Source: Brachyhypopomus gauderio
Lineage: Eukaryota > Chordata > Actinopteri > Gymnotiformes > Hypopomidae
NCBI RefSeq assembly: GCF_052324685.1
Contig: NC_135220.1
Span: 1,174,906-1,238,905, forward strand
Reading direction: 5' to 3'
DNA: 64,000 bases
This document shows, one piece after another, positions 4,202 to 64,000 of this stretch; within the stretch, counting starts at the first letter, position 1, and each line of letters begins with the position of its first letter. The position numbers were made by a program, and so were the translations under genes. Below the pieces are notes generated by a model. The model was not told the origin of the DNA, ran no database searches, and worked only from the letters and a program-made list of their open reading frames with translations.

Positions 4202-7200
4202 GACGTGAAAAGTTAGGATTTGACGTCGGCACACCAGTGCTGGTGACGCTTGAGGATGACGGGACTATTGTGGAAGACGAAGACTACTTTTTGTGTTTGC
4301 CGTCAAATACCAAATTCATTTTGCTGCGTCATGGGGAGATGTGGAAACCTGACAGCAGATGTAAGAATGTCTCTGGATGCAGACTTTTCTCTGAAGCTTA
4401 TCTCTAATCCTAATCGAGCACACCGTCCTCTGTAGGTGATGAGCGCACAGCCTGGCCCAGCCATGATTCGGGTGCAGTGGAGACAGACGTGGTGGACAGT
4501 GCAGAGGCCTGGCCCGGTTTAGCTCACCAGCTCAAGCAGGACCTGGCCAGCATCATTTTCATGTCTGAAGCAGACCTGCAGGTCTCTTGAAATCACGGAA
4601 TCATCTCCGGTCCACCATGCCACACTGACGTTCTCTGTTAATCGCTCTGCTGCCTCTGACCGCGTGCTGAAATGTGTGTTCACGGCAGAGTCTGGTAGAT
4701 GTACCTTGTGCAGACCTAGCCACAGCGCTGGGCTTCCCTGAGAAGAAGGCCCATGATTTACAAGACACCTTGCAGAGAGTCCTGGACCGTAGGGAAGAGG
4801 AGAGGCAGTCCAGAGACCTGCTGCAGCTCTATCTGAAGGCCGTGGAGAAGGAGTCTAGCCAGGCGGTGCTGCCAGACGGTAGGAATCTGTTAATTGAAAT
4901 ATAACATTTGAAATGGTTTTAAAAATAAACATTTCTGACATGAAATTGTCCGGTGGTCTCAGAACATGGATTTGCCTTTTGACTTATTGGCGGTCTACAG
5001 CCACAAGGTGGTGCAATTGTGCAATGAAAAACAAAATTATTCTTCAATAACGAATGCATTTGCTTTTCCAATCAGGGATTAAGTAGTAAAAAGTGTCAAT
5101 TTTCTAATTCTTATGGTTAAATTAATGTCTTAACTAATGCCCATGAAATAGATCACGTGCTTTTGGTGAACTTGTGTGATGTGTGCTGGGTGTTGGGTGC
5201 AGTATGATGTGTGCTGGTTGATGTGTGCTGGGTGCTGTATGATGTGTGCTGGTTGATGTGTAATGTGTGCTGGTGATATGTGATGTCTGCTGGGTGATGT
5301 GTAATGTGTGCTGGTGATATATGATGTCTGCTGGGTGATGTGTAATGTGTGCTGGTGCTGTCTGATATGTGTGCTGGGTGATGTGTAATGTGTGCTGGTG
5401 ATATGTGATGTCTGCTGGGTAATGTGTAATGTGTGCTGGTGCTGTCTGATATGTGTGCTGGGTGATGTGTAATATGTGCTGGTGATGTGTGCTGGGTGAT
5501 GTGTAATGTGTGCTGGTGATGTGTGCTGGGTAATGTGTAATGTGTGCTGGTGCTGTCTGATATGTGTGCTGGGTGATGTGTAATTTGTGCTGGTGATGTG
5601 TGCTGGGTGATGTGTAATGTGTGCTGGTGATGTGTGATGTCTGCTGGGTGATGTGTAATGTGTGCTGGTGCTGTCTGATATGTGTGCTGGGTGATGTGTA
5701 ATATGTGCTGGTGATGTGTGCTGGGTGATGTGTAATGTGTGCTGGTGATATGTGATGTCTGCTGGGTGATGTGTAATGTGTGCTGGTGCTGTCTGATATG
5801 TGTGCTGGGTGATGTGTAATATGTGCTGGTGATGTGTGCTGGGTGATGTGTAATGTGTGCTGGTGATGTGTGCTGGGTAATGTGTAATGTGTGCTGGTGC
5901 TGTCTGATATGTGTGCTGGGTGATGTGTAATGTATGCTGGTGCTGTCTGATATGTGATGTGTAATGTGTGCTGGGTGATATGTGATGTCTGCTGGGTGAT
6001 GTGTAATTTGTGCTGGTGATGTGTGCTGGGTGATGTGTAATGTGTGCTGGTGCTGTCTGATATGTGTGCTGGGTGATGTGTAATATGTGCTGGTGATGTG
6101 TGCTGGGTGATGTGTAATGTGTGCTGGTGATGTGTGCTGGGTAATGTGTAATGTGTGCTGGTGCTGTTTGATATGTGTGCTGGGTGATGTGTAATGTATG
6201 CTGGTGCTGTCTGATATGTGATGTGTAATGTGTGCTGGGTGATATGTGATGTCTGCTGGGTGATGTGTAATGTGTGCTGGTGCTGTCTGATATGTGATGT
6301 GTGCTGGGTGATGTGTAATGTGTGCTGGGTGATATGTGATGTGTAATGTGTGCTGGTGCTGTCTGATATGTGATGTGTGCTTGTGCTGTGTGATGTATGC
6401 TGGTGCTGTCTGATATGTGATGTGTGCTGGGTGCTGTGTGATGTGTGCTGTGTGATGTGTGCTGGTGCTGTCTGATATGTGATGTGTGCTGTGTGATGTG
6501 TGCTGGGTGCTGGTGCTGTGTGATGTGTGCTGGTGCTGTGTGATGTGTGCTGGTGCTGTGTGATGTGTGCTGGGTGCTGTGTGATGTGTGCTGGGTGCTG
6601 TGTGATATGTGATGTGTGCTGTGTGATGTGTGATGTGTGCTGGGTGCTGTGTGCTGGGTGCTGTGTGATGTGTGCTGGGTGCTGGTGCTGTGTGCTGTGT
6701 GCTGGTGCTGTGTGATGTGTGCTGGGTGCTGTGTGATATGTGATGTGTGCTGGTGCTGTCTGATATGTGATGTGTGCTGTGTGATGTGTGCTGGGTGCTG
6801 GTGCTGTGTGATGTGTGCTGTGTGCTGGTGCTGTGTGATGTGTGCTGGTGCTGTGTGATGTGTGCTGGGTGCTGTGTGATATGTGCTGTGTGATGTGTGC
6901 TGGGTGCTGTGTGATGTGTGCTGGGTGCTGTGTGATGTGTGCTGGGTGCTGGTGCTGTGTGCTGTGTGCTGGTGCTGTGTGATGTGTGCTGGGTGCTGTG
7001 TGATATGTGATGTGTGCTGGTGCTGTCTGATATGTGATGTGTGCTGGTGCTGTGTGATGTGTGCTGGTGCTGTCTGATATGTGATGTGTGCTGGGTGCTG
7101 TGTGATGTGTGCTGGGTGCTGTCTGATATGTGATGTGTGCTGGGTGCTGTGTGATGTGTGCTGGGTGCTGTGTGATGTGTGCTGTGCTCTTCGCCTGTTG

Positions 7201-10498: not shown

Positions 10499-13400
10499 CT
10501 AACTGTTTTCCAACATGGTTTGTTCGATCCAGGGGAGATAGTTGGTCACTTTGGTGTAAACCCCGTAGTATCCTGCTTCTGCACATGTATATCCCCAGGA
10601 CACGATGCCACCGACGTACCAGCTGCGGCTTTGCCTGTCCTGAAACACATACGGTCCCCCGCTGTCCCCTTGGCAGGTGTCCACACCCCCTTCTGCCAGT
10701 CCTCCACACATCATATTCTCTGTTACCACCAGCTTTCCTTTTGGCAAAACTAAGGAGTCGTACTTCGCTTTACATACATCGAAATCCACAATTGGTATTT
10801 CCGCAAACTTGAGATCGGAAGAACCCCGGCCGCTAGTCATCTGCCATACGCCCCATCCGCTCACTATCCCGTAATCATCGGTCTTCGGCAGGAATCGTGC
10901 CTCTTTCCCTGGCAGGCACACGGGCATGATGGTGGCGCTTATGGACACCTTGTGCTCCAGTTTGATCAGGGCGATGTCGTTATTGAAGTTGAGGTTGTCA
11001 TGATGGTAACTTGGGTGTATGAAGATGTCTTTGGGGATGCCCACCACCGCCTCGGGGTCCTTCCGTTTCACCAGGCCCAGTTTCACCTGCACTTCGGACA
11101 TTTCGTCATAGCCTTGCAGGATGTGGGCGGCGGTCAACACCCAGTTGTCATGGAGCAGGGCGCCGCCCCCCTGTAGAAAGCCCGCCTTCAGAACCATCAC
11201 TTGCCAGGGGATCTCATTCTTCTCCACGTTCTCCCCTCCGATCACCTTGGCCAGTCTCCCGCTGGGCTTACCGCAGACTGCCAGAAAGGGCCCCGGGGTT
11301 AACATCAGGAAATGGAACATGAACGGAAAGTCACCGAACCACGTAGGTGAACAGCTTGTTCGAAGTCCTACTTTAAGTGATTTCATTGTTGTGAAGCAGG
11401 GTGATGACTAAATAGAACCATGCTATTAGTAGGAATAAGGAGGACTCAGGTAAGAGTTTCTTACCAGGTGCACACGTAGGAACCTTTTTTCCACCCAGAG
11501 AGTCTCTCCAGTAGCCATCATGAGCACAGGTATAGACTCCTCAATAGTGGGGGGAGAAAAAGACGGTAATTTCATGAACTATGGTAATTGTCTATCAGTT
11601 TTGTGACGGATATAAAGTGTCCAGTATGTTTGTGTGATAAACTCACCATTGTTGGTGGCCTCCATGGTGTAAAACTCCTTACAGTTGTACGTCACTGAAG
11701 ATTTATATGTGGTTGTAGTGAACTGACGACTTCCACTTTGAATTTCTTCAGGGTTTCCACAGTCAACCACTCCAAAGGAAATCTAAATGTTATTGCTGTC
11801 CAAGAGGGTACCTTTATTCCATTTTAGGTGTGTTCAGTTATTAAATGTCAACTCAAAATCTGGCAGCTTTAAATGTTGGTTCTCTCCAGCTCAGTTTGTT
11901 AGCAAAGGATTCATGATAACTCCAGTAAACCCCTACTGACAATTGAACGGGTTGTTTGAATTCTAATTACTTACTTTTACAGAGAGGCATTGGACCATCC
12001 CAGAACCCACCCTTCAGGCATTTGGCTTCATAGGAGGTCAGTATTTCGTCTCCCTACAAATACAAAAGTCACTAAAGGCCACGGAGGTTTAATTTTGCTG
12101 CTCACCATTGAAATCTGAGACACAAGCCATTTACCAGAGTTAACTCATAGCCGAGGTCACATGTGACGCTGAAGCTGTCTGTAAGGATGTACCGGTCTTG
12201 TTGCGGGTTAATGTGACCATGGAGAGGAGCCGCTGGGTTTGGGCATGGTTTGGCTGGGAGGGTGAAAAAGCAGTGAACATTAGGTCATCAAACAGTGCCT
12301 CTAATGGTAGTACACTCCACGGTGTGCACAGGAAATCAGACCATTAACTTTCTGAAACTAAACATTGATGTGAGTTTGAATGTTTCACATTTAAAATGGC
12401 TGCAAGGACATCCATCAAATTTGAATAGTGAATCTAAAAACATGTAAAAATAGAATTGGCACAACATTCATATGGACCATTCTGATGGTCTATCAGATCC
12501 TTTATGGTCAATAAAACATCTACAGGTGCTATAGTCATGCTATTCTAAGTGATGTTAAAGAATACTGAGAGCGTGTCATTGTCAGACACACCTGTGCTAG
12601 AGTACTTTATCTTCCAGCCCCGGTTTTTCCCTGAACCGTCTGAACGGAAGGACACGTGCACTTCATGAGTGCCGGTCTCAATTCTGGCTGGTTCCTTGGT
12701 TCCACAGAATGGGCCATACTCCCTCAACCCCGCAGTGACCTTCAGAGATGAAGTGAAGATTCTTTTGAGGAACATGTCCATTTGACTAGTAAGTAAATGC
12801 AACTTGTCAGCGTGTCCTTTGTGAGAGATGAAGTAGTTTATAGGAGGCGTGAGGCAGCATTCATTGGTTATTCAAGGAAATGTTTAGGGGACATGAGAGA
12901 GCATCTATTGGATATTCATGGACCTTCAGCTCTCTGATTGGTGGGTTTTAGGGGCAACTCTGTAGTGCGGCATCGTGCCTGATGAACCTGGTATTTGTGC
13001 TAAAGATGAGAAAGGTTTAAAGATGGGAAAGATCTAAAGGCATCCCAGTCCAACCTGCAACAACTACTTAATAACATTTTATTTAATGTTTTATGTTTTA
13101 CTTAACTCCTGACGGAACAAACAGTTGCATAATAGCCATGTTTATAACAAGGAACATTTGAATTCAGATGTGCTCTTATCATATGAATGATGGTGCCATA
13201 TCTGAATAAAGAAAGGAGCATTATTTTAGATTTATTTACAAGATTAGTATAAACAAATTAGAGAAACCCATTTTAGACTACTGTAGGGTTTATAGAAACC
13301 GTACATTACCTGTTTGTTTGCTGTTATTTATTTATTCACTTTTCTATTTGTAATATTAGGTTTAGCCTGTGTGCTGTAATTAGTGTACTTGCACCACAAA

Positions 13401-16941: not shown

Positions 16942-17576
16942 CGTCCACCTTCTGTCAGTCTCTTATGATGACGGACTTTTCTTTCCCTCCAGCAGAGCTA
17001 CGGTGAGGACCACAACGTGCCCCCGAGGTTGCTGAACCAATCCAGTAACTAAGGCTGCGCAAACACTGATGACCAATAGTCACAGACTTTCTCAAATGTT
17101 GACAGTGGTTCAGAGCCGTCGCTGTCCAGGTTCAAAACATTTCAGGGCAACGACTGATTAACAGTTTGAGCACTGACTATTAATGTGTAGAATGAAAGAT
17201 AGAACGGTTTGGCTTTATCAAACTTATTGATTATAAATAGCCCTTGGAAGAGGAGTTTGAAGAGGGACTGTCAGCTAGTAATGACGTGCATTTATTTCTT
17301 TAACTCTGCCAATATCTCTCCTCTTTGTCAATGATTGATTTCCCTGTCATTTCTATTTAAAGACTTAAAAACCTGATAATGGCTCTGACTTGTTTCTTAC
17401 GCACAAATGCTCTATAAATCTCACAAGTCTGCCGTCTTTGTCAGTGAACACCTACTGATATATCAGGCACAAGGCACAGTAATGGATACATTTGGCCTAA
17501 AGAGTAAAACGAGAGTGAGCAAAATCACCAGAATTGGCATCTGAGAGCGATAAACAGAGAAAGAAATCTTCTGCCT
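16942..17576 (-). promoter_or_regulatory. Presumed MASP2 promoter region
   Basis: The 635 bp between the MASP2 start codon and the 71-bp repeat array must hold its 5' UTR and core promoter. An AT-rich TATTTATAAT-like element on the minus strand near 17230 could be a TATA box. No firmer element can be assigned. Confidence 0.3.
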
Positions 17577-18999
17577 TTTGTCATTCTAGTGTGCCTTGAA
17601 GCATACGACAGGGGTTTAAAAACCTCTTCTTGTAGCCCCTGAACACTTTTGTCATTCTAGTGTGCCTTGAAGCATACGACAGGGGTTTAAAAACCTCTTC
17701 TTGTAGCCCCTGAACACTTTTGTCATTCTAGTGTGCCTTGAAGCATACGACAGGGGTTTAAAAACCTCTTCTTGTAGCCCCTGAACACTTTTGTCATTCT
17801 AGTGTGCCTTGAAGCATACGACAGGGGTTTAAAAACCTCTTCTTGTAGCCCCTGAACACTTTTGTCATTCTAGTGTGCCTTGAAGCATACGACAGGGGTT
17901 TAAAAACCTCTTCTTGTAGCCCCTGAACACTTTTGTCATTCTAGTGTGCCTTGAAGCATACGACAGGGGTTTAAAAACCTCTTCTTGTAGCCCCTGAACA
18001 CTTTTGTCATTCTAGTGTGCCTTGAAGCATACGACAGGGGTTTAAAAACCTCTTCTTGTAGCCCCTGAACACTTTTGTCATTCTAGTGTGCCTTGAAGCA
18101 TACGACAGGGGTTTAAAAACCTCTTCTTGTAGCCCCTGAACACTTTTGTCATTCTAGTGTGCCTTGAAGCATACGACAGGGGTTTAAAAACCTCTTCTTG
18201 TAGCCCCTGAACACTTTTGTCATTCTAGTGTGCCTTGAAGCATACGACAGGGGTTTAAAAACCTCTTCTTGTAGCCCCTGAACACTTTTGTCATTCTAGT
18301 GTGCCTTGAAGCATACGACAGGGGTTTAAAAACCTCTTCTTGTAGCCCCTGAACACTTTTGTCATTCTAGTGTGCCTTGAAGCATACGACAGGGGTTTAA
18401 AAACCTCTTCTTGTAGCTCCTGAACACTTTTGTCATTCTAGTGTGCCTTGAAGCATACGACAGGGGTTTAAAAACCTCTTCTTGTAGCCCCTGAACACTT
18501 TTGTCATTCTAGTGTGCCTTGAAGCATACGACAGGGGTTTAAAAACCTCTTCTTGTAGCCCCTGAACACTTTTGTCATTCTAGTGTGCCTTGAAGCATAC
18601 GACAGGGGTTTAAAAACCTCTTCTTGTAGCCCCTGAACACTTTTGTCATTCTAGTGTGCCTTGAAGCATACGACAGGGGTTTAAAAACCTCTTCTTGTAG
18701 CCCCTGAACACTTTTGTCATTCTAGTGTGCCTTGAAGCATACGACAGGGGTTTAAAAACCTCTTCTTGTAGCCCCTGAACACTTTTGTCATTCTAGTGTG
18801 CCTTGAAGCATACGACAGGGGTTTAAAAACCTCTTCTTGTAGCTCCTGAACACTTTTGTCATTCTAGTGTGCCTTGAAGCATACGACAGGGGTTTAAAAA
18901 CCTCTTCTTGTAGCTCCTGAACACTTTTGTCATTCTAGTGTGCCTTGAAGCATACGACAGGGGTTTAAAAACCTCTTCTTGTAGCTCCTGAACACTTTT
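17577..18999. repeat. 71-bp minisatellite, 20 copies
   Basis: Twenty head-to-tail copies of a 71-bp unit containing GTCATTCTAGTGTGCCTTG and GGGGTTTAAAAACC. Copies are almost identical; the only change I see is GTAGCCCC to GTAGCTCC in four copies, three of them the last three. Each unit has CAGGGG and CCCCTG about 20 bp apart as an inverted pair. The homogeneity means recent expansion or ongoing homogenisation. Confidence 0.97.
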
Positions 19000-21470
19000 G
19001 AAGAAGCCCGGGGTAATTGCAGCACAGTTAAACCCAAAATGCGGGAATCCTAAACACTACTGTCTCATTTCTTTTCACCTGGTTAGCGGTGATCAGCCAC
19101 GCGCTTACATCTGGCAAGCAGGATGTGGGCCTGTGATGAATGGGACCAGATTGCATCACTGAAATGAATGGGGAGGCCTGTTGCCACACCATGTGCCAAT
19201 TATCCTAAGAGCAAAATTAATTCTGTGCTTTTGTATCACCAGAGCCCGATTCATTTCTACCTTTTGGCGTGGAATGAAATGGTTATTTTAGCTGTTATTT
19301 AAAGAGGTGAAAGCTTCCCGCAAGAGGCAGAGAGCGTATGGATGTGACAAATGTTCTCTAAGCGAGCTTATAATAGAGCCCTCATTTCCAATACACTACA
19401 CTGTTAATGGCTGATGTACGTGGAGATTATTATAATTATCCACATAAACGACAATGGTAATTTCCAGTTGCAAACGCCCTTAATGATTGTGAGTGTCTGG
19501 TATAATGCAGTGACCTCTTATGTCCCATCTGCTTGGGAGATCACAGGTTGTTGGGCCACAGCTGAAGTGATTTATAAAGTGGAGGGTGTGCTTTGTCCTG
19601 AGTCACTACACAGCAGTACAGCATAGCTGTCACTTAGGAAGGGAGGGGGCTATCACTTTAGCACTCTGGTGCAGAAATGCAGAAAGCATTTACGGTAAAG
19701 AAACATGAAAACATGGCTTGTTTTGAGAATCAAAAATGTCCCTTGAATGAAAGCACAGCAAGATCTGTTTCAATAAGAGATTAATGAGATTATATCTATT
19801 TCAATAAGAGATTAAAGAGATTATATCTGTTTCAATAAGAGATTAGGGTATGACAGACTAGTCTATCAATATCAGTGTCACGTTGAGGCATACCAGTGAT
19901 TGGGGAGAATAAAACATGCCAAAATCTACTGACTGAAAAGAATGTCAATGTGAATTTTTAGGAACTGTTTAGGAAGCAAGGGTTTCATCCTGCACATTTC
20001 TTTAACTTAAGGACATACATGGAAGTGTTTGGAACCTTCTAAATATGCACATCCTCTATTTACTCATCTCTCCCCTCTCTTGGCTTACTGAGATTTTGTG
20101 CATACTAGTAAAATTTCGCATTTGTCAAAAGACTGCAGTCCTCACACCCCCCACCCGACAGCCTTCATCAGACATGACAGTTGATTCGTTGATTATATAC
20201 CTGTCCTAATTGTACCTTTTTCAACAAGATGACAAGTTTAAAACAGGAAAATGTACTTGCTTTATTAGAACACCTACAGAGACCCGATTGTAAAAGAAAA
20301 AATATATATATAAATAAAATATCTTTGTCATCATGATAATTATATGAAGTTCTGTTGATTAATTTAACATATCTTGCCTTATTTCTGACTGACAGTGTCA
20401 AATGCATCAAAATATTATTGGGTACATGTTGAAATATTAGCTGAAATATTAATTATTTACAGCATGCAAAAACATAACAGTACACAAAAAGGTCCAATAC
20501 AACACTCAAATGTACATCAATCAACTGCATTAATTAGAGGCTTAGTGTATGCCGTTTACAAGTGAACTGGTTATTATTGGCCATTAACACACCAGGACAT
20601 GATGACATTCAGTATCTGGAACTTGTCTATGAGTCACAGGTTGGTCATTTGTCAGGGCATTAGCACCACATTAGGTGGAATGTCTAACTGGAGATTGGCT
20701 GAGATCTCTTCTCTAAAAAGTGCAATGCTGACATAGTACTAACTGTGCAAACATCAGTCACTGATTGATGACTTGTGTCACACACATATCCACAAGAAAT
20801 GGACAGAAATATCTTGATAGAAAATTGAATCAATTTGAAAAGCGTTTTTACAAAGAACCTTTTTGCAGTTTTCAGTGAATAGCAGAAATGACACTCACTC
20901 CAGTGCATGGTCTTGTCATACATTCAAGAAACAGCCCACCATCTATTTCGTTCCAACGAGAAGCTTCTCTCTTCAGAGCTGCTCTCTAAGGCTCAGGGCA
21001 TCCCAGGTAATGAAGTGTGTCCTTACAAGAATCCAGCCAGCCGGTCATTAAAGAGGCAGCAAGTCACTTTGATATGGAAACCAACACAGACCAGCAACAA
21101 AGGGATGGGAAAAATTGTCTAAAAAATGCATGCGAGGAGAATGACTAGATGTCGTCCCTTTTAAAGACATGCACAGAGTGTTTCACAGTAACACAGCTGT
21201 ATTGTGATGCCATGCATATTGCTACATGGCTAAGCAGCTGTCTATAAACATCTGTTTGAATAAGGGGAAGTTAGCTGACATCACGGTGTTAACAGTGTTT
21301 CTTTGCCATGACCCTCTAACACAGCATTAGTCATTATTATAAATTATAAAGTCATTATTTCCAAGCTCAACCACCCACAGAGTCTATAAACAAAAGCTGC
21401 TATGAGCTGTAAAAAGAAGTAGAAGTTCAGAAGTGACGGTCAGAAGAAACCAGGAGCCAGCCGTTGTAGG
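19000..21470. other. Intergenic stretch, no genes seen
   Basis: Unique-looking A+T-rich sequence. At about 19768-19850 a unit with TTTCAATAAGAGATTA is repeated three times at about 32-bp spacing. The open frames here are short and unlike known proteins. Confidence 0.5.
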
Positions 21471-21479
21471 AAGTTTTGT

Positions 21480-22078
21480 TTCGAATGCAATCCATGTCAA
21501 CATCGTTTGCCTCATTTCTATTGTGACTCGTGTCAATGACGTTTGCTTCGTGTCTATTGTGACCCATGTCAACATTGTTTTCCTTATGTCTGTGACCAGA
21601 GGTGTCAATTCCAGGTTCAGAAAGTAATAGTCCTCACCAGGATTTTGCTCAGGCTTCCTTTTACTTTCCGAACCTGGAATTGACACCTCTGCTCCTGTCA
21701 ACATTGTTTGCCTTGTGTCTATTGTGACCCGTGTCTACGTCGTTTGCCTCGTCTATTGTGACCCGTGTCTACGTCCTTTGCCACATGTCTATTGTGACCC
21801 GTGTCTATTGTGACCCGTGTCAATGTCCTTTGCCTCATGTCTATTGTGACCCGTGTCAACATTGTTTGCCTCATGTCTATTGTGACCCGTGTCAATGTCC
21901 TTTGCCTCATGTCTATTGTGACCCGTGTCAACATTGTTTGCCTCATGTCTATTGTGACCCGTGTCAACGTTGTTTGCCTCATGTCTATTGTGACCCGTGT
22001 CAACGTTGTTTGCCTCATGTCTATTGTGACCAGTGTCAACGTCGTTTGCCTCATGTCTATTGTAACCCATGTCAGTTT
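21480..22078. repeat. 36-bp minisatellite
   Basis: Tandem units of 36 bp built on TGTCTATTGTGACCCGTGTC and variants of AACGTTGTTTGCCTCA, regular from about 21700 to 22078 and more degenerate on the left. A multiple of three, so both strands carry meaningless open frames (up to 158 codons). A foldback element sits inside it. Confidence 0.93.
21597..21691. repeat. Inverted repeat (31-bp arms, 33-nt loop) inside the minisatellite
   Basis: Arm 21597-21627 begins CAGAGGTGTCAATTCCAGG; arm 21661-21691 is its reverse complement with a single mismatch (TTCAGAAAG against TTCGGAAAG). The 33-nt spacer is unrelated to the 36-bp unit. The RNA of either strand would fold into a near-perfect 31-bp hairpin. 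Confidence 0.9.
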
Positions 22079-24301
22079 TATTTTGGAGCAAATACAAAGA
22101 AACAGACGTTTTTCCCAAGGGAAATCGGGAAGAACACCTGGGAAAAAATTCAAGACATCACCTCAGAAGGACAGAGAAAGATGTTACGTTTCTTTGTAAC
22201 CTCATGAATCTTCTGTAATGGCATAAACATTTCCTCTTTTCTCCCTATACACACATAGGTGTACCCACTGGCCCTAAGGGCAGAAGACATAAAGCAGACC
22301 AGGTTGAGCGTCTGACTGTTCCTTTGTATTATCTACACAACAATTGTGTTCGCGCTAACGTAACCTCTAGCATTTCTTATGTCAACATGTCAGCTGAAAG
22401 GTTAGAGTGGATCAGAGCTGGAATCATAGCTGGACAGATGAGGTGGACTGTTCTGACCTCAGCTCCCAAATAAATGAGAGAGATGACCTAACAAATTGAT
22501 ATGCTTTATTACATTTTGTCTGCGTTGGGGGCTGGTGTATGTGGGGCACGTGAGCGTGCCTCTCCGTGTGCATGTGAACCTATATCTCTATAATTCCAGC
22601 AATTGTCCTGGAACTGTGGAAGATCAGGCCAATAATCTGTGTCCTAATCTGTATCTATGTCTCTAACTTCTGGAAATATCACTGGTATGGTCATTGATGG
22701 GCTTCACAACATGCCTGCCAATGACAGATCTAAAAGTTCTTTACTTTTAAAAGGCTCTTTGGATTTTTGTTAGCGAGAACGCAAAATGATGAGTGGGAAC
22801 CCGAGCCCTGTCTTCAGTAGGCCTTAATCTGATCCGACATTATTCAGTCATTTACTTCTCCCCGGCCCACCTGAATGAAACTCGGCGGTCAGAGCAGCAC
22901 CTGGGTACCGTTGTTTCTGATCACATCCTCTTACACCGCTGTTGGCTGCAAACAGCGCGTTATATGGGCTGGACCTCGAGTGTCAGGCACACTCAATTGG
23001 CAAATGCCCGCCTGCCCACAGGAGTGCAGGGAGGCCCATATGGGGCACTTTAATTCTCAGAAAAATGCATGAAGGACCAAATTGAAAGAGTAATGGCAAC
23101 GTGACGTCAAGCCTGCGGCTCAGTGCGGGAGGACTCAGCCTCGATTTATCAAGAGTCATTCCGCCATCATTAGCTTTAGGGTTTAAAAGGCCACCCGGCT
23201 GCGGGCCACAACGCTAGCTGACACCCCCCACCCACCTACCACCCTCTCACCCTCACACCCCCCCCCCCTCCCCATCTGTGCCACTCCCAGTTAACACACA
23301 CAGGGGAATACAGGTGTGAGCTATTCTATGGAACCGAACCTCAGCCAATGAAACATCACCAACCACAAAACAGGTATGTACCGCTTATATGTAATAAAGA
23401 GATCTATTTCTAATGTTGTGGATCAGTGGTATGTGCAAGTCAATTGTGCATACATGAGGGTGATTTTTGTGAGTGCTATTACAGTCGAGGCAGAGAGCAG
23501 GTTAGACACAAGGCTTGCCAGAGAGCCAGTGCCTGACTTCAAATTCAACTCAGAGTTGATTCAGGATTATGAGTCTGAACAGTCATGTCTGGGTGTGATA
23601 TGGGTGTGATTTAAGAGCACTAAAAATAAGTTGTTTTAATTATTACTGTCTATTTCTAGCTGGCGAAATAAGAATCGAATAAGTAATTTGGTGAGGCCGT
23701 CATTAAATTCCAGCATTTCAAATTCAGTCCCAAAAACGGAGTTATACAAGCATGTCGTTAAAACATGCCAGTGTGATCAGTCCCAGCAATACGAGGACTG
23801 TTCAAGTGAAGCGAGAACGATCGGCTGGAGAGGCACCACAGGTTCACACTTTTCGCTTGCAATGCCATGAGACAGTGGGAGGTTGACGCTTCCTCGTGAC
23901 CTTTCCACAGCAACCGCTCCCTTAAGCGCTTTCATTTCACGTTATCATCGTGACTGAGACTTAAGGAAAAAGAAAAGAAAAAAAGTGTTAAAAGCAATTG
24001 TTCTACACTACATAATGTGTTATGAATTGGCACGTTCGTGCCGGTACAATAGTGGAACAATAGGTGAAAACCTAATACTCTGTTTTACACTCTTTTATCA
24101 CACTTTCTGAATAATTCTTAAATGGGTTCAAGTTTAGAGATGCAATTTGATCTATATGAAGTCTTTCTTTGATGTGGGATCTATGGGACACCAAAAATCC
24201 AGTAATCCTTTTACTATTTTAAAGCCGTTATTTATTTAAAGACTTCAATTATGTTTAAAGGACATTCTCACAGTACCTTTGGACCACTACAACAGGCCTA
24301 C

Positions 24302-37761: not shown

Positions 37762-39856
<2,095 letters not shown>

Positions 39857-40804: not shown

Positions 40805-50689
<9,885 letters not shown>

Positions 50690-51838: not shown

Positions 51839-53149
51839 GGGAGATCGATCTCACAGGGCTCCTCACAGAATCTTAGCACATCAAACAGTGAGCCAGTTCC
51901 TTTGAGTATATATATTTTTTCATGTGACAGAGCTCATTATAGTTTGAAATGTTTTTCAACCCTATTTTTATTATTTTAAACTGCTCGGCTTTCGGTTGGT
52001 CACTGTCATTTTTGATCAATAGTTAATAACCCTCCAAGGACATGAGATGAGATGGGAGGGTAAAAGCTGATGAACTCTGACCTTGAGTGGCATCTTTGTA
52101 GGCGGAAGAGAAGCTGGAGAGAGAGAGACAAGACAGGATGAGACGGGAGGGGGAGGGGCTGGCGGAGATACAGCACATGGTGACCTCTGACCTGCTGACC
52201 GAGTGCCCGGAGGCTGCAGAGAGAGCCCCTCGCGTGCTACCCGACCGCTGGAAAGGAATGAGCCCCAGTCAGCTCAGCGCCATCTACAGGCAGAGAGAGG
52301 AGCAGCGCGCTGAGAGAGAGGTACAGGAACATCTCCCTTGCTTTCAAACGGTGTTCTTCTGTCTCTACTGTGGAAGTACATCCCTGTCCCCCCCCCCCCC
52401 CCCCCCTCCCCGACCCCTCCCCTCACCCCAGAGGCTCACACAGCTTGAGAAACAGAGGGAGAAGGCCTGGGGTTTGCTGCAACTACAGCAGGCCAGGCAG
52501 CAGGTGGAGGAGGAGAGCAGTGTGAGGTTGATGGAGAAGGAGAGGAGAGCACAGCTGGACTGCTACAACCAGCAGCTGGCCAGAGAACAGCAGGCACGGT
52601 AAGGGCCACATGCCATCCGTCACACGCCACACACACGCCACACACACGCAGAGAGCCCCGCCCAATGCTAGCCCACACCTCTCAGACCCTTTAGCTTCTT
52701 CACACTGAAGGTTCCTCTGACAATGTGAATGCTTGTTCTTTTGCCATTTGTGCGGTAGTAAGTCATGGTGGTATATTGTTAAAAGTTTCCTGAGGTGATA
52801 TTTTGTTAAGCTCATATGATGTTCGTCTTTGTCATGTACAATTGAACAAAAATCAACAAAGTATTTTTCAAAATTTGTTTCGTAGATACAAATGCCACAA
52901 AGACATTTTTAAAACATCTGTTTTAGAATAAATTTATAATTTAGGGAGGTTTTGAGCAGGCACTGTACTTTCCTTTAAGTGAAAACTTAATGTTAATCTA
53001 AAAAGAGAATACGTAAGTGATTTTAAGTGGTTTAGTGATTGACACATATATATCCATTCTCATACAGCCAACAGTACCTCAGGAATGAGATTTACACCAA
53101 CCGGCCTACTGCACGCTACTTCACCCAGTTCAGCACAAGCTCACGCTAG
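50690..53149 (+). CDS. ribc1: RIB43A domain with coiled coils 1 (ciliary doublet protein)
   Basis: RIB43A family protein, a microtubule inner protein of axonemal doublets in cilia and flagella. Seven exons: 50690-50888, 50998-51218, 51353-51467, 51635-51753, 52102-52320, 52432-52598, 53068-53149 (TAG). Total 373 aa, in phase (human 379). It starts MFRLDLPVDETAMKALQRRR. Family blocks are RQKRIFNTRNRVMGLDLQTL, VTSDLLTECPEAA, RVLPDRWKGMSPSQLSAIYR, CYNQQLAREQQAR and YLRNEIYTNRPTARYFTQF. It is mostly charged coiled coil with no signal or membrane segment. In exon 2 two donors (51209 and 51219) are possible; the second gives the better join to GEGVGEVERR. Intron 3 is framed by complementary (AC)n and (GT)n. 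SMC1A-RIBC1 head-to-head order matches human Xp11. Confidence 0.94.
51472..51519 (+). repeat. (AC)24 at the 5' end of RIBC1 intron 3
   Basis: Starts four bases after the exon 3 boundary (donor GTAA). Confidence 0.97.
51601..51630 (+). repeat. (GT)15 at the 3' end of RIBC1 intron 3
   Basis: Ends immediately before the GCAG acceptor of exon 4; it sits where a polypyrimidine tract is expected. Confidence 0.97.
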
Positions 53150-56200: not shown

Positions 56201-58230
56201 TTATCAGTCTGCTACAAATTAGTTAATCAGCTAGTCGAATTAGATCAAATCATCACAAAGTTATATAATTTCATATGTTTTCATATGTTCTGAACCTATA
56301 CATTACTGTTGTTGTGTGTATGGAGAGATGGAGTTAGCAATAAACCTGATACTACGAGACCGAAAGTCTCGCAGAGTCATTCCTCGCAGAACTATTACAG
56401 GTGCCTAACCCTAATCCTAACCCTAACCCTAATCCTAACCTGGATGGCGGATTAATAATTTTAATCGGCGTTCCAAGACCCGTACGATGGCTGTTGCTGT
56501 CTCCTGCTCGTTTTACGCACTATTACGTCTCTTTGTTTCAGTTTCCGATATTTGGATGGCGATGAGGTTTTGTCAACCGTGTATAAAGTAACTTTTATTC
56601 GGGTTGTTCACTCGAGAGTGAGAATAGGGAAGAATTGTAGGCCTACATCACATAGGTTCGAGCTCACTGTATAGACACATAAAGTAAGTGGGCGGGTGCC
56701 ACCCACCGTATATTCTGGTTAGAATAGAAAAGTGTAGTTTATTCCCGATTCTTTAGGTGTAGGATTAGCTTTAAATTCTGACAAGGATAGATTACGTTTT
56801 TGTTCCTTTCGTTGCTTGGGCAGCACCTTGGTATTCTCTCTAGAGCAACACCCATACAAGGTTTCACTTCTCGTTTGGTTGCTTCTACGTAGTGTTTTGG
56901 TGGGTGTTGTCTTTTGGTGGTTATTACACCTGGCAAAAAAACCCATTCAATGCACTTTCTGTGTCCGTGTGCTGGCTCACACCAGATGCCTTGATGTCGC
57001 ATCCACTCTGCTGCCTAGAACCCAAACCTACCAGGTGGGCGCGTAACACCTTTGTGTACCTGTGTTCACCTGTGTACACCTATGCTACGGTGGGCCGCAG
57101 AGTCACAACACAACGGAAAATGGGAAGCAAACAACAGATGACAAGACAGTGGGTTTAAGGGATGATGCAAACGTAGCACTGAACCACTAAGTGACAACTT
57201 GTTCATATTAAGCCAAGACCGACAGCATTAGCCCAAATCTGATCAAAACCTCACACTCAGAGGTCACGTGCAGCGGACGTTTCTAAAGGCCACTCACTGC
57301 AGACATCACCTGGCACAAAGAAATATATGTGAAGATCTACAACTAACATACATGCATATTTTCCACTAAGTGATGTTTTAAAGATCTCAGTGCAAACAGT
57401 CTATGCAAACACTAATGAGGCATGTCTTTTTCTTTTCCTCTATAGTAGGTTATTAGCCATACATTGAATATTTGCTTAGCATGAATAGATGTGGACACTA
57501 CAGTGTTTTCCCGGCTTGCAAAATATTACAAAAAAGCTCAACTTCTACACGCTGTTAACTTTGCATAGCTAGCTATCATTGGTTACTTCATGGCATAGAG
57601 CATACCTACCATGAGCTCAAAGGCAGAAGATTCACTTTGGCTAATGTTGTCACTTACAGCTTAATGTTGTCATTTCATTCCGCTTGAATTTCTGATTTCT
57701 GATTGGTTCCACAAATGCAGTGATTTTGTTTTTGGTGATGTGTTCACATATAGTGTGTTGGTTATCCCTTAAATTATGATGTTTGTCATCTTTTGTTTGA
57801 TTCGCTGTTACTGCTTTTCCGCCACTCTTTTGGTCACTGTACTGTAAACGATTATGAAATGACATATTTGAAAGAGGAATTATCTGTAAACAGTTCGCAG
57901 GGCAGTCCCTACCCATACGGATGCTTGTCTAATCTATTGTATTTCCCTCCACCTATGCCTGAAGTACATCAGCTGATCCAATTATGTCTAATTTCAGTCC
58001 CAACTCTATATATGGTGTTTCATTACGTGGGATTTGGTTTGAGTGTACATACCGATGTTGTACTGCATCTACTGATCGATTGGTCAGTCCCAGATATGAG
58101 TTAGCGGACACGTGTGTGAATCCCGGTTGGAAGTGTGGCCTACCCTGCCTTGCTAGTCTAAGACCACGGTGGATTTGGGCAGGCTGTGGCTGGCGGGCAG
58201 GACCGTGGCAGGGTGAAGGTCTGAGCTGTC
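53280..58230. other. 5 kb between RIBC1 and L1CAM; L1CAM 3' UTR inside
   Basis: No exon set recognised. The right part must contain the L1CAM 3' UTR on the minus strand; one possible AATAAA is at 56738-56743, which would give a 1.5 kb 3' UTR. Contains a poly(C) run of about 23 at 54748-54770, telomere-like repeats at 56405-56440 with a small hairpin (CGAGAC/GTCTCG) just before them, and otherwise A+T-rich unique sequence. Confidence 0.45.
56405..56440. repeat. Degenerate interstitial telomere-like repeat
   Basis: Six hexamers alternating CTAACC and CTAATC, the second such run in the window. Confidence 0.75.
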
Positions 58231-59346: not shown

Positions 59347-60750
59347 ATGTTACCTGCCCCCGTAGTCTGTATGTCAGTCTCCCAAAAGGAGCCGTTGCTG
59401 GAGATGCCCTGCAGTATGTAGGTGGAGCCAGGCTGCAGGCCCTGCAGGGAGTAGAAGGTCTGGGAGGAGTTCACCTTCTCCGAACGCTGCAAGCCTCCCT
59501 TGCCTTAGAGACGGAAAACCCAACACACACGATCCCATCGGCACGTTAGCAGCAAGCACTGAGCCCCTCGCTCCAGGTCTGGTAACACCAACACACCAGC
59601 GCCAGGACTCCTGAAGTTGGTGAAAACTTTACAGCAAAACTTTACAGCAAAGCTTTACTCCAAACTCCCACCAGTGCATTCACATCGGATGCCCTTTCAC
59701 ATAAGAACAGGGACCATATCAAAGGGTACAGATCTACTCCAGTATGATCGTGTAAACGATAACGGCTCCATTAGCGCGTTCACAGTGTGCTCCGCTCTGG
59801 CAAAGCTCTCACCGTTCTTCCGCTGGTAGTGAATGTGAAAGCCCACATTTCTCTGCCTCTCATGGGAAACCCACGTTAGGTTGACGTACGTTTCTCCAAC
59901 AGACAGACTAAAGTTCCGCGGTGGACCTGTTCACACACACACACACACACGCAAAATCACACAAACACTAAAATGACGGGGTGAAAAAAACATTTCATTT
60001 CATGCAGGTTTCCATTCTGGATGTTTTCCCTGTAACATAAATGGTATCAGTATGGTGTTCTCCCTGCAGGAATAGAGCACGCAGGCATTTCTACATTTAC
60101 CCTGTAATCTCAATCACTGCACTTCTAGTGTGTCCATTACTCATGCACACTGCTTTATTTAGATTAACTTTCATGCTTCATGGAAACTGAAACTGTGTCT
60201 CGGAAATAGCAGATGGTTCGCTGCTGGATTATACTTAGTTTGATAAGATTTTTTTCTTTTTTGTTCTATTCTTGAACGTCATGTTTTATTCATTGTTCAG
60301 TGATTTTCCATTGCTGGGTGATGCTGGCTTATCAGAACACTTGGTACTTGATACCAGATAACAGAACATAAAACTTTGATGCTTGTTTCTTGAAGAGAAG
60401 GAATCAAGCTTCCTTCCTTTCATGGCTGGTCTATCTGTTTACTATTACCATCCAATTTGTAGTAATATAAACAAGATTAAGCAAATGGCTCAAAAGTACA
60501 ACAGATAAAAATAAGCACTCGAGCTCAAGAGCAGAATTCAACTTGTGAGCAAGACTGCTACATAAATGAGGGACCTCCATCAAGGGTGGTTGCTCCCTCT
60601 CGGGTGATGGGCAGGCCATTCCCAGCAGCAGTGAGGCCATGGAGGTAAAACCGATACCGGCCATGGGGGTCCAGCTCTTTAAGAGTGAGCTGGGTCACTG
60701 TGTGGTCATCGATCCTCTTCTCCTGCATCGGACTATATGCATTATCCACT

Positions 60751-60788
<38 letters not shown>

Positions 60789-63700
60789 GAATGGAAAGAT
60801 GAAAGAGAAAGCACAAAGACTTAATGGAGGAGTTCTTAGTGAGGTAAACTTCTACATGTCCGGAGATTGAGGATTTAACAGCTCCCAACACAGCTCAGCC
60901 AATGTGGTTTCAGGACTACAACTATCCCTTTTATAATGCCACATTACTAGAACAGATGTTTATCTTTGTAGAATGAATGACTAATTACAAGGAAATTAAT
61001 GGTATTTGAAAGTAAAGTAGTGCCTCTGATATGCTTTGAAGAAGCACTATAAGGCTTCCTGTACAGCTAATATTCCTTGTTTAAATGCTATGAATCTTGA
61101 AACTGTTATGGTAACAGTGGAAATGAGTAGACATACGTTGCTGGTATTGCACCAAGTATCCAATCAGAACCCCGTTGGGTTGAGCAGGTGCAGTCCAGTG
61201 CAGGGTCATCTCTCTCTCAGAGGGGCTGACCAGCTCCATAGACATGGGTGGACCAGGAACTGTAGGAATACAACGACGCCATAGATGATTGGAAACCGCC
61301 TGCACGCTGGATCTGTTCATCTTTCTCTGTGATTCTGAACAGACCTGAAGAAAAGCTTGAAATGCTCGATAATTTTCGGAGGACCTGAATATCAGGAAAA
61401 GTGCAAAACTTCGACCGGGACTGGGAACCAGTAACATAACTGTACTGGTTGAGACATGAGCGGTGCCTCACCCCCCTCTGGTGTCTGGAAGGTGCGGGCC
61501 TCCGACTCTGGTCCGTCCCCTTTGCTGTTGAACACGCTCACAGCGAGAGCGTAGCAGGAGTACGGCTGCAGCCCGCCCAGATCCTTCTTCTCCTCGTTAG
61601 CGCCTGTCGTCACGACGACAGAACTCAGGGGCGGGCCCTCCGTCTCAGCGTACGCCTGCCCGTGTCTGCCGCAAGGGCCGTAGTTGGTCAGGTGGATCTT
61701 ACGGAGAAAAACAACGTGGGAAAAATTCACTTCACTTTGATTCTCAGCCAGTGGAATGCTGGAAACGAAAGTCTCATTTCATCAGAGTCAAATAAAAAAT
61801 AAGGGCTTGGAAAAAAAAAAAACTTTTGTATCTCTTTCTAAAACTCAAGATTCAAAAAAGAATTTTTATAATCAGCCTTGGATTCGCAGATTAAAGGAGC
61901 TCAAACGTTTCCCTAGAGGAAGGACTGCAGACACACAGATGGACGTCGGCTTTTCACCACCCCGGGAAGTCAGACTACTTCTCCTACATTTTGAGTTGTG
62001 ACGAGTGTGTGATGGGATTTTGGGTGATGGGAATTTGGGAATATTCTACTTAATTCTTATATAACTGAACCTTGTGTTTTTTTTTAAACTAAGGCTGAAT
62101 TTATTAGCTCTTCAATCCTGTGACATCTTATGACATACAAGGGAAAACGTATATCAACCTCACACTCTGACTTTTCTTTATAAACATCTTAGTTTAAAAC
62201 TCCCTTTCGTTCTTGGCTCTGTATCACTGTATCACTGTATGCAGAGCTTACAACAAGTAAGCTGAGTTTTTATTTCTTCTTTGATGAGGGGCTTGTAAAG
62301 GGTTTTATCTCAGTGGTACAGTACCTTATAACCCAACAGTGGTACAGTACCTTATAACCCAACAGTGGTACAGTACCTTATAACCCAACAGGTGGTACAG
62401 TACCTTATAACCCAACAGGTGGTACAGTACCTTATAACCCAACAGTGGTACAGTACCTTATAACCCAACAGGTGGTACAGTACCTTATAACCCAACAGTG
62501 GTACAGTACCTTATAACCCAACAGGTGGTACAGTACCTTATAACCCAACAGTGGTACAGTACCTTATAACCCAACAGTGGTACAGTACCTTATAACCCAA
62601 CAGGTGGTACAGTACCTTATAACCCAACAGGTGGTACAGTACCTTATAACCCAACAGTGGTACAGTACCTTATAACCCAACAGTGGTACAGTACCTTATA
62701 ACCCAACAGGTGGTACAGTACCTTATAACCCAACAGGTGGCCCCTCACTGTCTCCCTGTCCACTGGAGACCACGTCACCCTAATGGCAGTGCTGTTGTGC
62801 AGAATCACGCCCACATTCAAGGGAGATTCCAGAGGATCTGAAAAACACACACACACAAACACACACACACGCAGACACACAGCACATACAGGGAGGCCCA
62901 GAGGACCCATATGAGAATTTGAAACTGAGATGATCAGGACATCTAAACTAACCCAGTCACTTGCATGATTCTAAATATTCCCTTCGGTTTGCTTCATTGA
63001 CCTGTAGAATGGCTGGAACTGTTCAGGTACACCTAGATCAATATAAAGCACTTATCGAAAGCTGAAACCCCTCATCACGCCGTAGCTATCGCAAACAAGA
63101 GAAGCCTGACTCACAGTCCTCTCCAGAGTAGCCGATGGTGGACCTCGGTTCCGGCCCCTCTCCCACGCTATTAACAGCCTGCACCTTGATATCAAAAGCG
63201 GTGAAATGGTCCACGTCCGGGACAACGAAAGGCGGTGAGGTGGTGTTGGCGATGTGCCAGGAGGGTCCGCTGCCAACCACCTTCCTCCACATGACCTTAT
63301 AGCGGAAACCCGGCCCATTGAAGCTCATTTTATCCATCTCCTGCGAGAAGACAGAGCTGTGAGCTTCGTAGAAATCGTTATCGCCTTCAGAAATCGTTAT
63401 CGTACACAGAATTTGCTTATGCAGCTGGAGCGCGGACGTTTATGGCAAAGGCTCAAAGCAGCATGGAAGGAGACGTGATTCAACAGTTGGCGTGGTAGGA
63501 AGAACAGGTGACCAGGGGCACACACACACACACACACATACATACATACATACATACATACATACTTTATTGATCCCAGAGGGAAATTCCTGAACGCACC
63601 TTCCACGTGATGACGAGGGTGTTCGGGTCCATGGACACACTTTGCACGCCTTCAGGGTTACTGTCTGGCCCTACAGAGGACACACGGGAGTCTTAATGCA

Positions 63701-64000
63701 CAGAGCCCTCTCCGATAAAAGCCTGTCACTTCACATCAACAGCAAGGACCAAGGGCCTTCGCAGAGAGAGCTGGGATGATCACTACTCTGAATGACCATG
63801 GCCCCAAAAAATGTTGGCCTCAGTTCTAGGTCGTAATTGAGCATAAAGCTCGCTGTCTTACGGTCGGCAGGTGTAGAGTACGCTTCAGACGGCGGGCTGG
63901 GGTCGCTCTTGCCGACGTCATTGATGGCGATGACCCGGAAGTGGTAAGACAGGAAGGGTCTCAGGGACAGAGACGCACGCTGGGAATCTCCAGACACACG
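58231..64000 (-). CDS. l1cam: Neural cell adhesion molecule L1, 3' half (partial)
   Basis: Type I membrane adhesion receptor of axons. The 5' half lies beyond the right edge. Exons in gene order: >64000-63862, 63670-63600, 63340-63115, 62837-62722, 61697-61472, 61259-61137, 60748-60575, 59926-59813, 59503-59354, 59059-58928, 58817-58745, 58597-58586 (optional), 58411-58231 (TAG). All phases close. They encode fibronectin III repeats (landmarks [49 protein letters not shown]), a membrane helix ([20 protein letters not shown]), then [11 protein letters not shown] and [19 protein letters not shown]. That tail matches L1CAM and differs from NrCAM, neurofascin and CHL1. The C-terminus is short and the ankyrin motif is altered (LASQY). 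Donor GTCCCT at 60574 is weak. Teleosts have two L1CAM copies; I cannot say which this is. Confidence 0.94.
58586..58597 (-). CDS. l1cam: 12-nt RSLE mini-exon of L1CAM
   Basis: ATCTCTAGAGAG on the minus strand, preceded by TTTCCAG and followed by GTATGA. Included, the protein reads FGEYRSLESDNEEK; skipped, it reads FGEYSDNEEK. Both match the two known vertebrate L1 forms. In mammals the RSLE exon is neuron-specific and creates the YRSL signal for AP-2 endocytosis. Confidence 0.9.
59317..59344 (-). repeat. (AC)14 in an L1CAM intron, 9 bases past the donor
   Basis: On the coding (minus) strand the exon ending at 59354 is followed by GTAACATGG and then AC repeats. Confidence 0.95.
59932..59950 (-). 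repeat. (GT)n at an L1CAM acceptor
   Basis: On the coding strand about nine GT units run up to GAACAG, the acceptor of the exon starting at 59926. Confidence 0.9.
60751..60785 (-). repeat. (CT)n tract serving as L1CAM polypyrimidine tract
   Basis: On the coding strand about 16 CT units end in TTTGCAG, the acceptor of the exon starting at 60748. Confidence 0.9.
62313..62737 (-). repeat. 26/27-bp minisatellite made of an L1CAM exon end plus donor
   Basis: Sixteen copies, counting the real exon end, of a unit that on the coding strand reads CTGTTGGGTTATAAG then GTACTGTACCAC. The copy at 62722-62737 is the true end of the exon starting at 62837; the rest fill the start of the following intron. 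Units differ only by one G (26 or 27 bp). Confidence 0.95.
63541..63595 (-). mobile_element. Retroposon 3' tail in an L1CAM intron
   Basis: On the coding strand GGAATTTCCCTCTGGGATC is followed by AATAAAGTATGTATG and then (TATG)n and (TG)n. This is the common 3' end of fish non-LTR retroposons or their SINEs. It begins about 9 bases into the intron after the exon ending at 63600. Confidence 0.65.

Follow-up and report, generated by a model that had tools for sequence, protein, structure and literature searches.

The end of one coding exon of an L1-family gene and the 5' splice site that follows it form the repeat unit of a minisatellite which runs on into the adjacent intron, placing 16 identical candidate donors, separated by 15 full units, along the minus strand of the 64,000-nucleotide stretch of DNA analyzed here (the window). 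It is probable that this array arose by slippage across the exon-intron boundary and is for the most part an intronic passenger, with donor 1 giving rise to the main product and the remaining donors being used rarely or leading to nonsense-mediated decay (NMD).

The right end of the window, whose sequence resembles that of a fish, harbors, on the minus strand, the 3' half of the gene in question. Thirteen exons, placed by eye from the reading frame and splice consensus between positions 64000 and 58231 (minus strand), join to a single open frame of 578 residues with a terminal stop codon only, the first exon extending past the window edge. The product matches the Pfam families fn3 (four stretches, E 4.6e-45) and Bravo_FIGEY (tail, E 1.1e-20), and a transmembrane segment was identified by eye in the translation between the FN3 repeats and the Bravo/FIGEY tail. 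The cytoplasmic tail begins GGKYSVK..., and a 12-nt mini-exon (58597-58586, minus strand) encodes RSLE; this tail, which we take to be of the L1 type rather than of the NrCAM or neurofascin type, returned no matches up to E 1 against solved structures and none in NCBIfam, a prokaryotic library. For the FN3 domain affected by the array, the best whole-chain match among solved structures was 8afo (L1; E 4.6e-19), with 1uen (KIAA0343, presumably NrCAM) at E 4.9e-17. Because the two structures tie when the aligned FN3 domain alone is scored (64.7 versus 64.5 bits), the assignment to L1 rather than to another member of the family is kept soft. The preliminary description had named the gene as L1CAM; membership of the L1 family, judged on the 3' half (the N-terminal Ig domains would fall 5' of position 64000, beyond the window), is supported by the two Pfam matches, while L1CAM is the most likely member within it, a choice that leans partly on the tail type. 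Elsewhere in the same gene, a weak donor, GAG|GTCCCT, is present at position 60574 (minus strand), which scores below the other 11 donors on a weight matrix; the exon edge at this position was fixed by frame alone and may be wrong.

The affected FN3 domain is divided between two exons. The upstream exon (62722..62837, minus strand; 116 nt), delimited by its open frame and gap-free homology, specifies the first half of the domain, with the product ending ...VRGHLLGYK at a codon boundary, and the following exon (61472..61697, minus strand; IHLTNYGPC...PEG), placed by the gene model and homology, specifies the second half. According to the gene model, the intervening intron (61698..62721, minus strand) measures 1,024 nt if donor 1 is used. 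The exon end at 62722 and the next exon start at 61697 had also been proposed in the preliminary description, and agree with this model. Two AATAAA hexamers within the intron, at 62274 and 62105 (minus strand), represent possible cryptic poly(A) signals.

The upstream exon ends CCACCTGTTGGGTTATAAG and the intron opens GTACTGTACC (minus strand), and the boundary, TTATAAG|GTACTG, is repeated from position 62740 to 62311 (minus strand), as read directly by tandem repeat detection (TRF), an exact parse, and a pattern search. TRF reported 16.1 copies, at 62311-62736 with a period of 26 and at 62313-62740 with a period of 53; the array, approximately 430 bp in length, has its edge at 62740 within the exon, from which it takes in 19 exonic nt and then GTACTGTA. 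The 19-mer GGTTATAAGGTACTGTACC occurs in 16 exact copies (62315-62730, minus strand), against an average of 0.01 per shuffle (100 shuffles of the window, three or fewer mismatches tolerated), and AAGGTACTG is found outside the array once, at 24276 (minus strand), and nowhere on the plus strand of the window. The donor G is located at positions 62721, 62694, 62668, 62642, 62615, 62588, 62562, and 62536 for donors 1 to 8 and at 62509, 62483, 62456, 62430, 62403, 62376, 62350, and 62324 for donors 9 to 16 (all minus strand). The 15 inter-donor units comprise seven of 27 bp (A) and eight of 26 bp (B), in the order ABBAABBABABAABB, the two forms differing by CACCTG versus CACTG alone, and the 397 bp from the first to the last donor are fully parsed into such units with no substitutions. 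Both the identification of the exon end and its donor as the repeat unit and the count of 16 identical candidate donors, as originally described, are upheld by this exact parse and by the 16 exact copies of AAG|GTACTG. The order of the units gives no evidence of a higher-order repeat, the longest repeated block (BAABB, length 5) being reached in 2,753 of 5,000 shuffles. The absence of substitutions over 397 bp suggests that the array is young or has been homogenized, and by the rule of three, divergence among the units would lie below about 0.8%.

Between positions 58000 and 64000, TRF identified eight distinct arrays (after overlapping period rows were merged by hand), of which this one alone extends into a modeled exon of the gene. 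The remainder of the window contains a second highly homogeneous minisatellite (17575-19000; 71-bp unit, 20.1 copies, 99% matches by TRF), extended degenerate arrays built from TAC-rich and TGTGTGC-type repeats (1114-2517 and 5173-7186, TRF), and a 36-bp minisatellite (21802-22074; 7.6 copies, 92% matches) through which several frames remain open, as is expected since its unit is a multiple of three. Pfam matches were obtained to a trypsin domain (10505-11407, minus strand), spermine/spermidine synthase (37765-38196, minus strand), an SMC N-terminal domain (48518-48859, minus strand), and RIB43A (52102-52599, plus strand), while three of the seven neighboring gene pieces scanned against Pfam gave no match, and no tRNAs, or RNA families at gathering score, were detected in the window.

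The products specified by the individual donors can be read directly from the frame. Donor 1 (AAG|GTACTG, 62716..62724, minus strand), whose placement follows from protein homology and the open frame, yields an exon of 116 nt, while the exon predicted for donor 16 reaches 513 nt (116 + 397). Translation indicates that donor 2 (62689..62697, minus strand) is the sole downstream candidate without a stop codon, and the in-frame addition of nine residues (VLYHLLGYK) by one 27-bp unit, anticipated in the preliminary description, is borne out. Also in keeping with that account, which considered most alternatives disruptive, 14 of the 15 downstream donors (the candidate donors 3 to 16, 62319..62671, minus strand) lead to a stop codon, located in the next exon for donor 3 and inside the array for donors 4 to 16; donors 7, 12, 13, and 14 do restore the frame, yet only past in-array stops. 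A stop codon upstream of later splice junctions leads to NMD, and mRNAs formed from donors 3 to 16 are expected to be targets of this pathway, since at least eight splice junctions follow in the gene model.

Comparison with solved structures points to donor 1 as both the ancestral and the main donor. The donor 1 protein (GHLLGYK|IHLT) aligns without gaps across the junction to L1 (VKGHLRGYN|VTYW, 8afo) and to 1uen (IRGHLQGYR|IYYW), which argues that the coding exon end is old and that the intronic copies are derived. The Pfam FN3 score, at 38.7 bits without the nine extra residues and 37.2 bits with them, provides a weak hint in favor of the form that lacks the insertion.

The nine-nucleotide splice site cannot decide which donor is chosen, because all 16 copies are identical; donor strength as the chooser is thus ruled out. 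The site, AAG|GTACTG, is also without the usual bases at +4, +5, and +6. Among the 12 donors of the gene, it takes 11th place in weight-matrix score and 8th in U1 duplex energy (register not forced), and the weight matrix favors 10 further GT sites of its exon and intron over it. RNA structure was similarly rejected as the chooser, as the accessibility of donor 1 shifts with the folding settings: by the unpaired probability of the nine-nucleotide site, it ranks 1st of 16 at W150/L100, 2nd at W70/L70, and 13th at W240/L160. A collapsed, single-copy form of the array leaves the donor site more open than does the array itself (0.0185 versus 0.0090 at W150/L100), and the complete array is less stably folded than its shuffled counterparts (z +2.24), 99 of 100 of which match or exceed its stability. 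The candidates that remain are exon length, exonic enhancers, transcription order, and clearance of wrong products by NMD, and the presumed use of the first donor is most likely explained by exon definition together with NMD. The first copy is not always the winner, however, since at the duplicated splice junction of CBS 844ins68 the more distal copy is described as strongly spliced (PMC2630376, in excerpt).

With regard to origin, we propose that slippage or unequal exchange duplicated 19 exonic and approximately 8 intronic nucleotides over the exon-intron boundary, which would have created a second donor, and that later expansion would have produced the 16 identical donors. The two unit lengths may reflect two alternative points of exchange between CCACCTG of the exon and the CCACTG with which the array still ends in the intron: an exchange ahead of the extra C would yield the 27-bp unit and one past it the 26-bp unit, such that one ancestral boundary would suffice. 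When the flanks are joined to give the collapsed form, the spacing between the CCAC of the exon and that of the intron is 27 nt, the length of the long unit; four repeats of at least 4 nt span the boundary in this form, at spacings of 38, 27, 18, and 21, and CCAC alone fits a unit length. Such microhomology is not beyond chance, given that 2,489 of 5,000 single-base shuffles hold a repeat of at least 4 nt at a spacing of 20 to 32, and its involvement at the origin is at most consistent with the sequence. The resulting array would be almost wholly intronic and mostly a passenger. Under exon definition, donor 1 would be favored, being the donor closest to the 3' splice site of the same exon and the first to be transcribed; donor 2 may be used occasionally, giving the nine-residue insertion, and any donor past donor 2 would lead to a stop codon and presumably NMD. 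In the best reading, the array is tolerated because splicing mostly takes the first donor and wrong choices are mostly NMD substrates.

An unlikely alternative, albeit the strongest of those considered, holds that splicing draws appreciably on several of the array's donors, in which case array length and the order of the 26- and 27-bp units would set the share of productive mRNA, acting as a copy-number-dependent poison-splicing rheostat. The identity of all 16 donors and the stop codons that follow 14 of them are compatible with such a function, as are the use of downstream units in IFI6 (PMC4526556, in excerpt) and the lower CBS activity reported with more CBS repeats (PMC5188458, in excerpt); late donors, however, would lengthen the exon to as much as 513 nt, and strong poison splicing in a nerve adhesion gene should face counter-selection. 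In a more specific, length-coded form, for which the prospects appear poorer still, the donors would compete, unit order would determine which are productive, and a polymorphic copy number would translate into dose or into an FN3 isoform with nine additional residues.

It is also improbable that the copy number represents an assembly artifact, with fewer or more units in the real array. While units identical save for one base would lend themselves to such an error, the order ABBAABBABABAABB has no simple period, the flanks run on into an in-frame exon and intron, and the array is short. Least credible of all, to the point of being very improbable, is a role for the array in its own right, in which its repeated AAG|GT boxes, or else the self-complementary GGTACTGTACC, would serve in U1 recruitment, shielding of a nearby AATAAA, or pairing that hides donors: AAGGUACUGU is predicted to retain 5 bp of pairing with the 5' end of U1, the last donor is followed 50 nt later by the AATAAA at 62274 (with the second at 62105), all 15 downstream donors fall under the median accessibility of the region's GT sites at W150/L100, and an intronic VNTR directs TERT splicing via RNA pairing (PMC3948165, in excerpt), yet the donors are weak, the array is less stably folded than shuffles (z +2.24, as above), and the accessibility pattern fails across settings.

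The array offers, in a conserved gene, a naturally occurring set of 16 identical 5' splice sites told apart by position alone, with an ancestral junction that homology allows us to infer. As every donor would give rise to its own product length, the effects of position (exon definition, transcription order, and distance to the 3' splice site) could be read out directly, making this a good natural test case for the choice between identical 5' splice sites. Short-read splice aligners may misplace junctions at this array; errors of this kind at VNTRs are described in the EASTR work (PMC10632439, in excerpt).

Several known systems share elements of this arrangement. The gain of introns via tandem AGGT duplication, as in the Rogers model, ATP2A1, and the 24-bp repeats of fission yeast, likewise involves an AG|GT segment copied in tandem (PMC4974935, in excerpt), whereas here the donor of a preexisting intron was copied. 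That mechanism would produce a new intron with donor and acceptor alike derived from the duplicates; here the reading fails, as the acceptor before position 61697 falls outside the array and its use brings back the homologous protein. The 38-bp VNTR in intron 6 of TERT is an intronic minisatellite as well, and its copy number affects splicing (PMC3948165, in excerpt).

The layout described here is already known in human CBS and IFI6, to which the L1-gene array adds another case. The IFI6 minisatellite has a unit of 12 nt, which resembles the donor consensus and starts near an exon end, and thereby differs from the 26/27-nt units here, which in addition carry a nonconsensus donor and offer only one open alternative. 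The 31-bp VNTR of CBS is reportedly credited to Lievers (2001), and Turri (1995) is said to have described the human 6-16 minisatellite as supplying multiple splice donors. Two downstream repeat units of the IFI6 (6-16) minisatellite act as alternative donors (PMC4526556, in excerpt), and the array resembles it in that its units carry candidate alternative donors, known to be used in IFI6 and recognized here from sequence. The CBS VNTR, c.1444_1467+7(16_21), lies at the exon 13-intron 13 boundary (PMC2630376, PMC5188458, and PMC1395315, in excerpt), and its unit, to judge from this name, consists of 24 exonic and 7 intronic nucleotides, thus likewise spanning an exon end and donor. Copy numbers are also close, with tabulated CBS alleles of 16, 17, 18, 19, and 21 copies (PMC2630376, in excerpt), a range of 16 to 21 versus the 16 donors present here. 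In contrast, CBS is a different gene that is polymorphic between alleles, while the present array was read from one sequence, and CBS units are always 31 bp with single-base differences according to the excerpted text of PMC2630376, whereas those described here occur in two lengths with no substitutions. Among the literature matches listed, for which L1CAM by name was a small part of the topics covered, there was no report of the array itself. What is new in this case is the mixture of 26- and 27-bp units, the identity of every donor, and a donor that lacks the +4/+5/+6 consensus.
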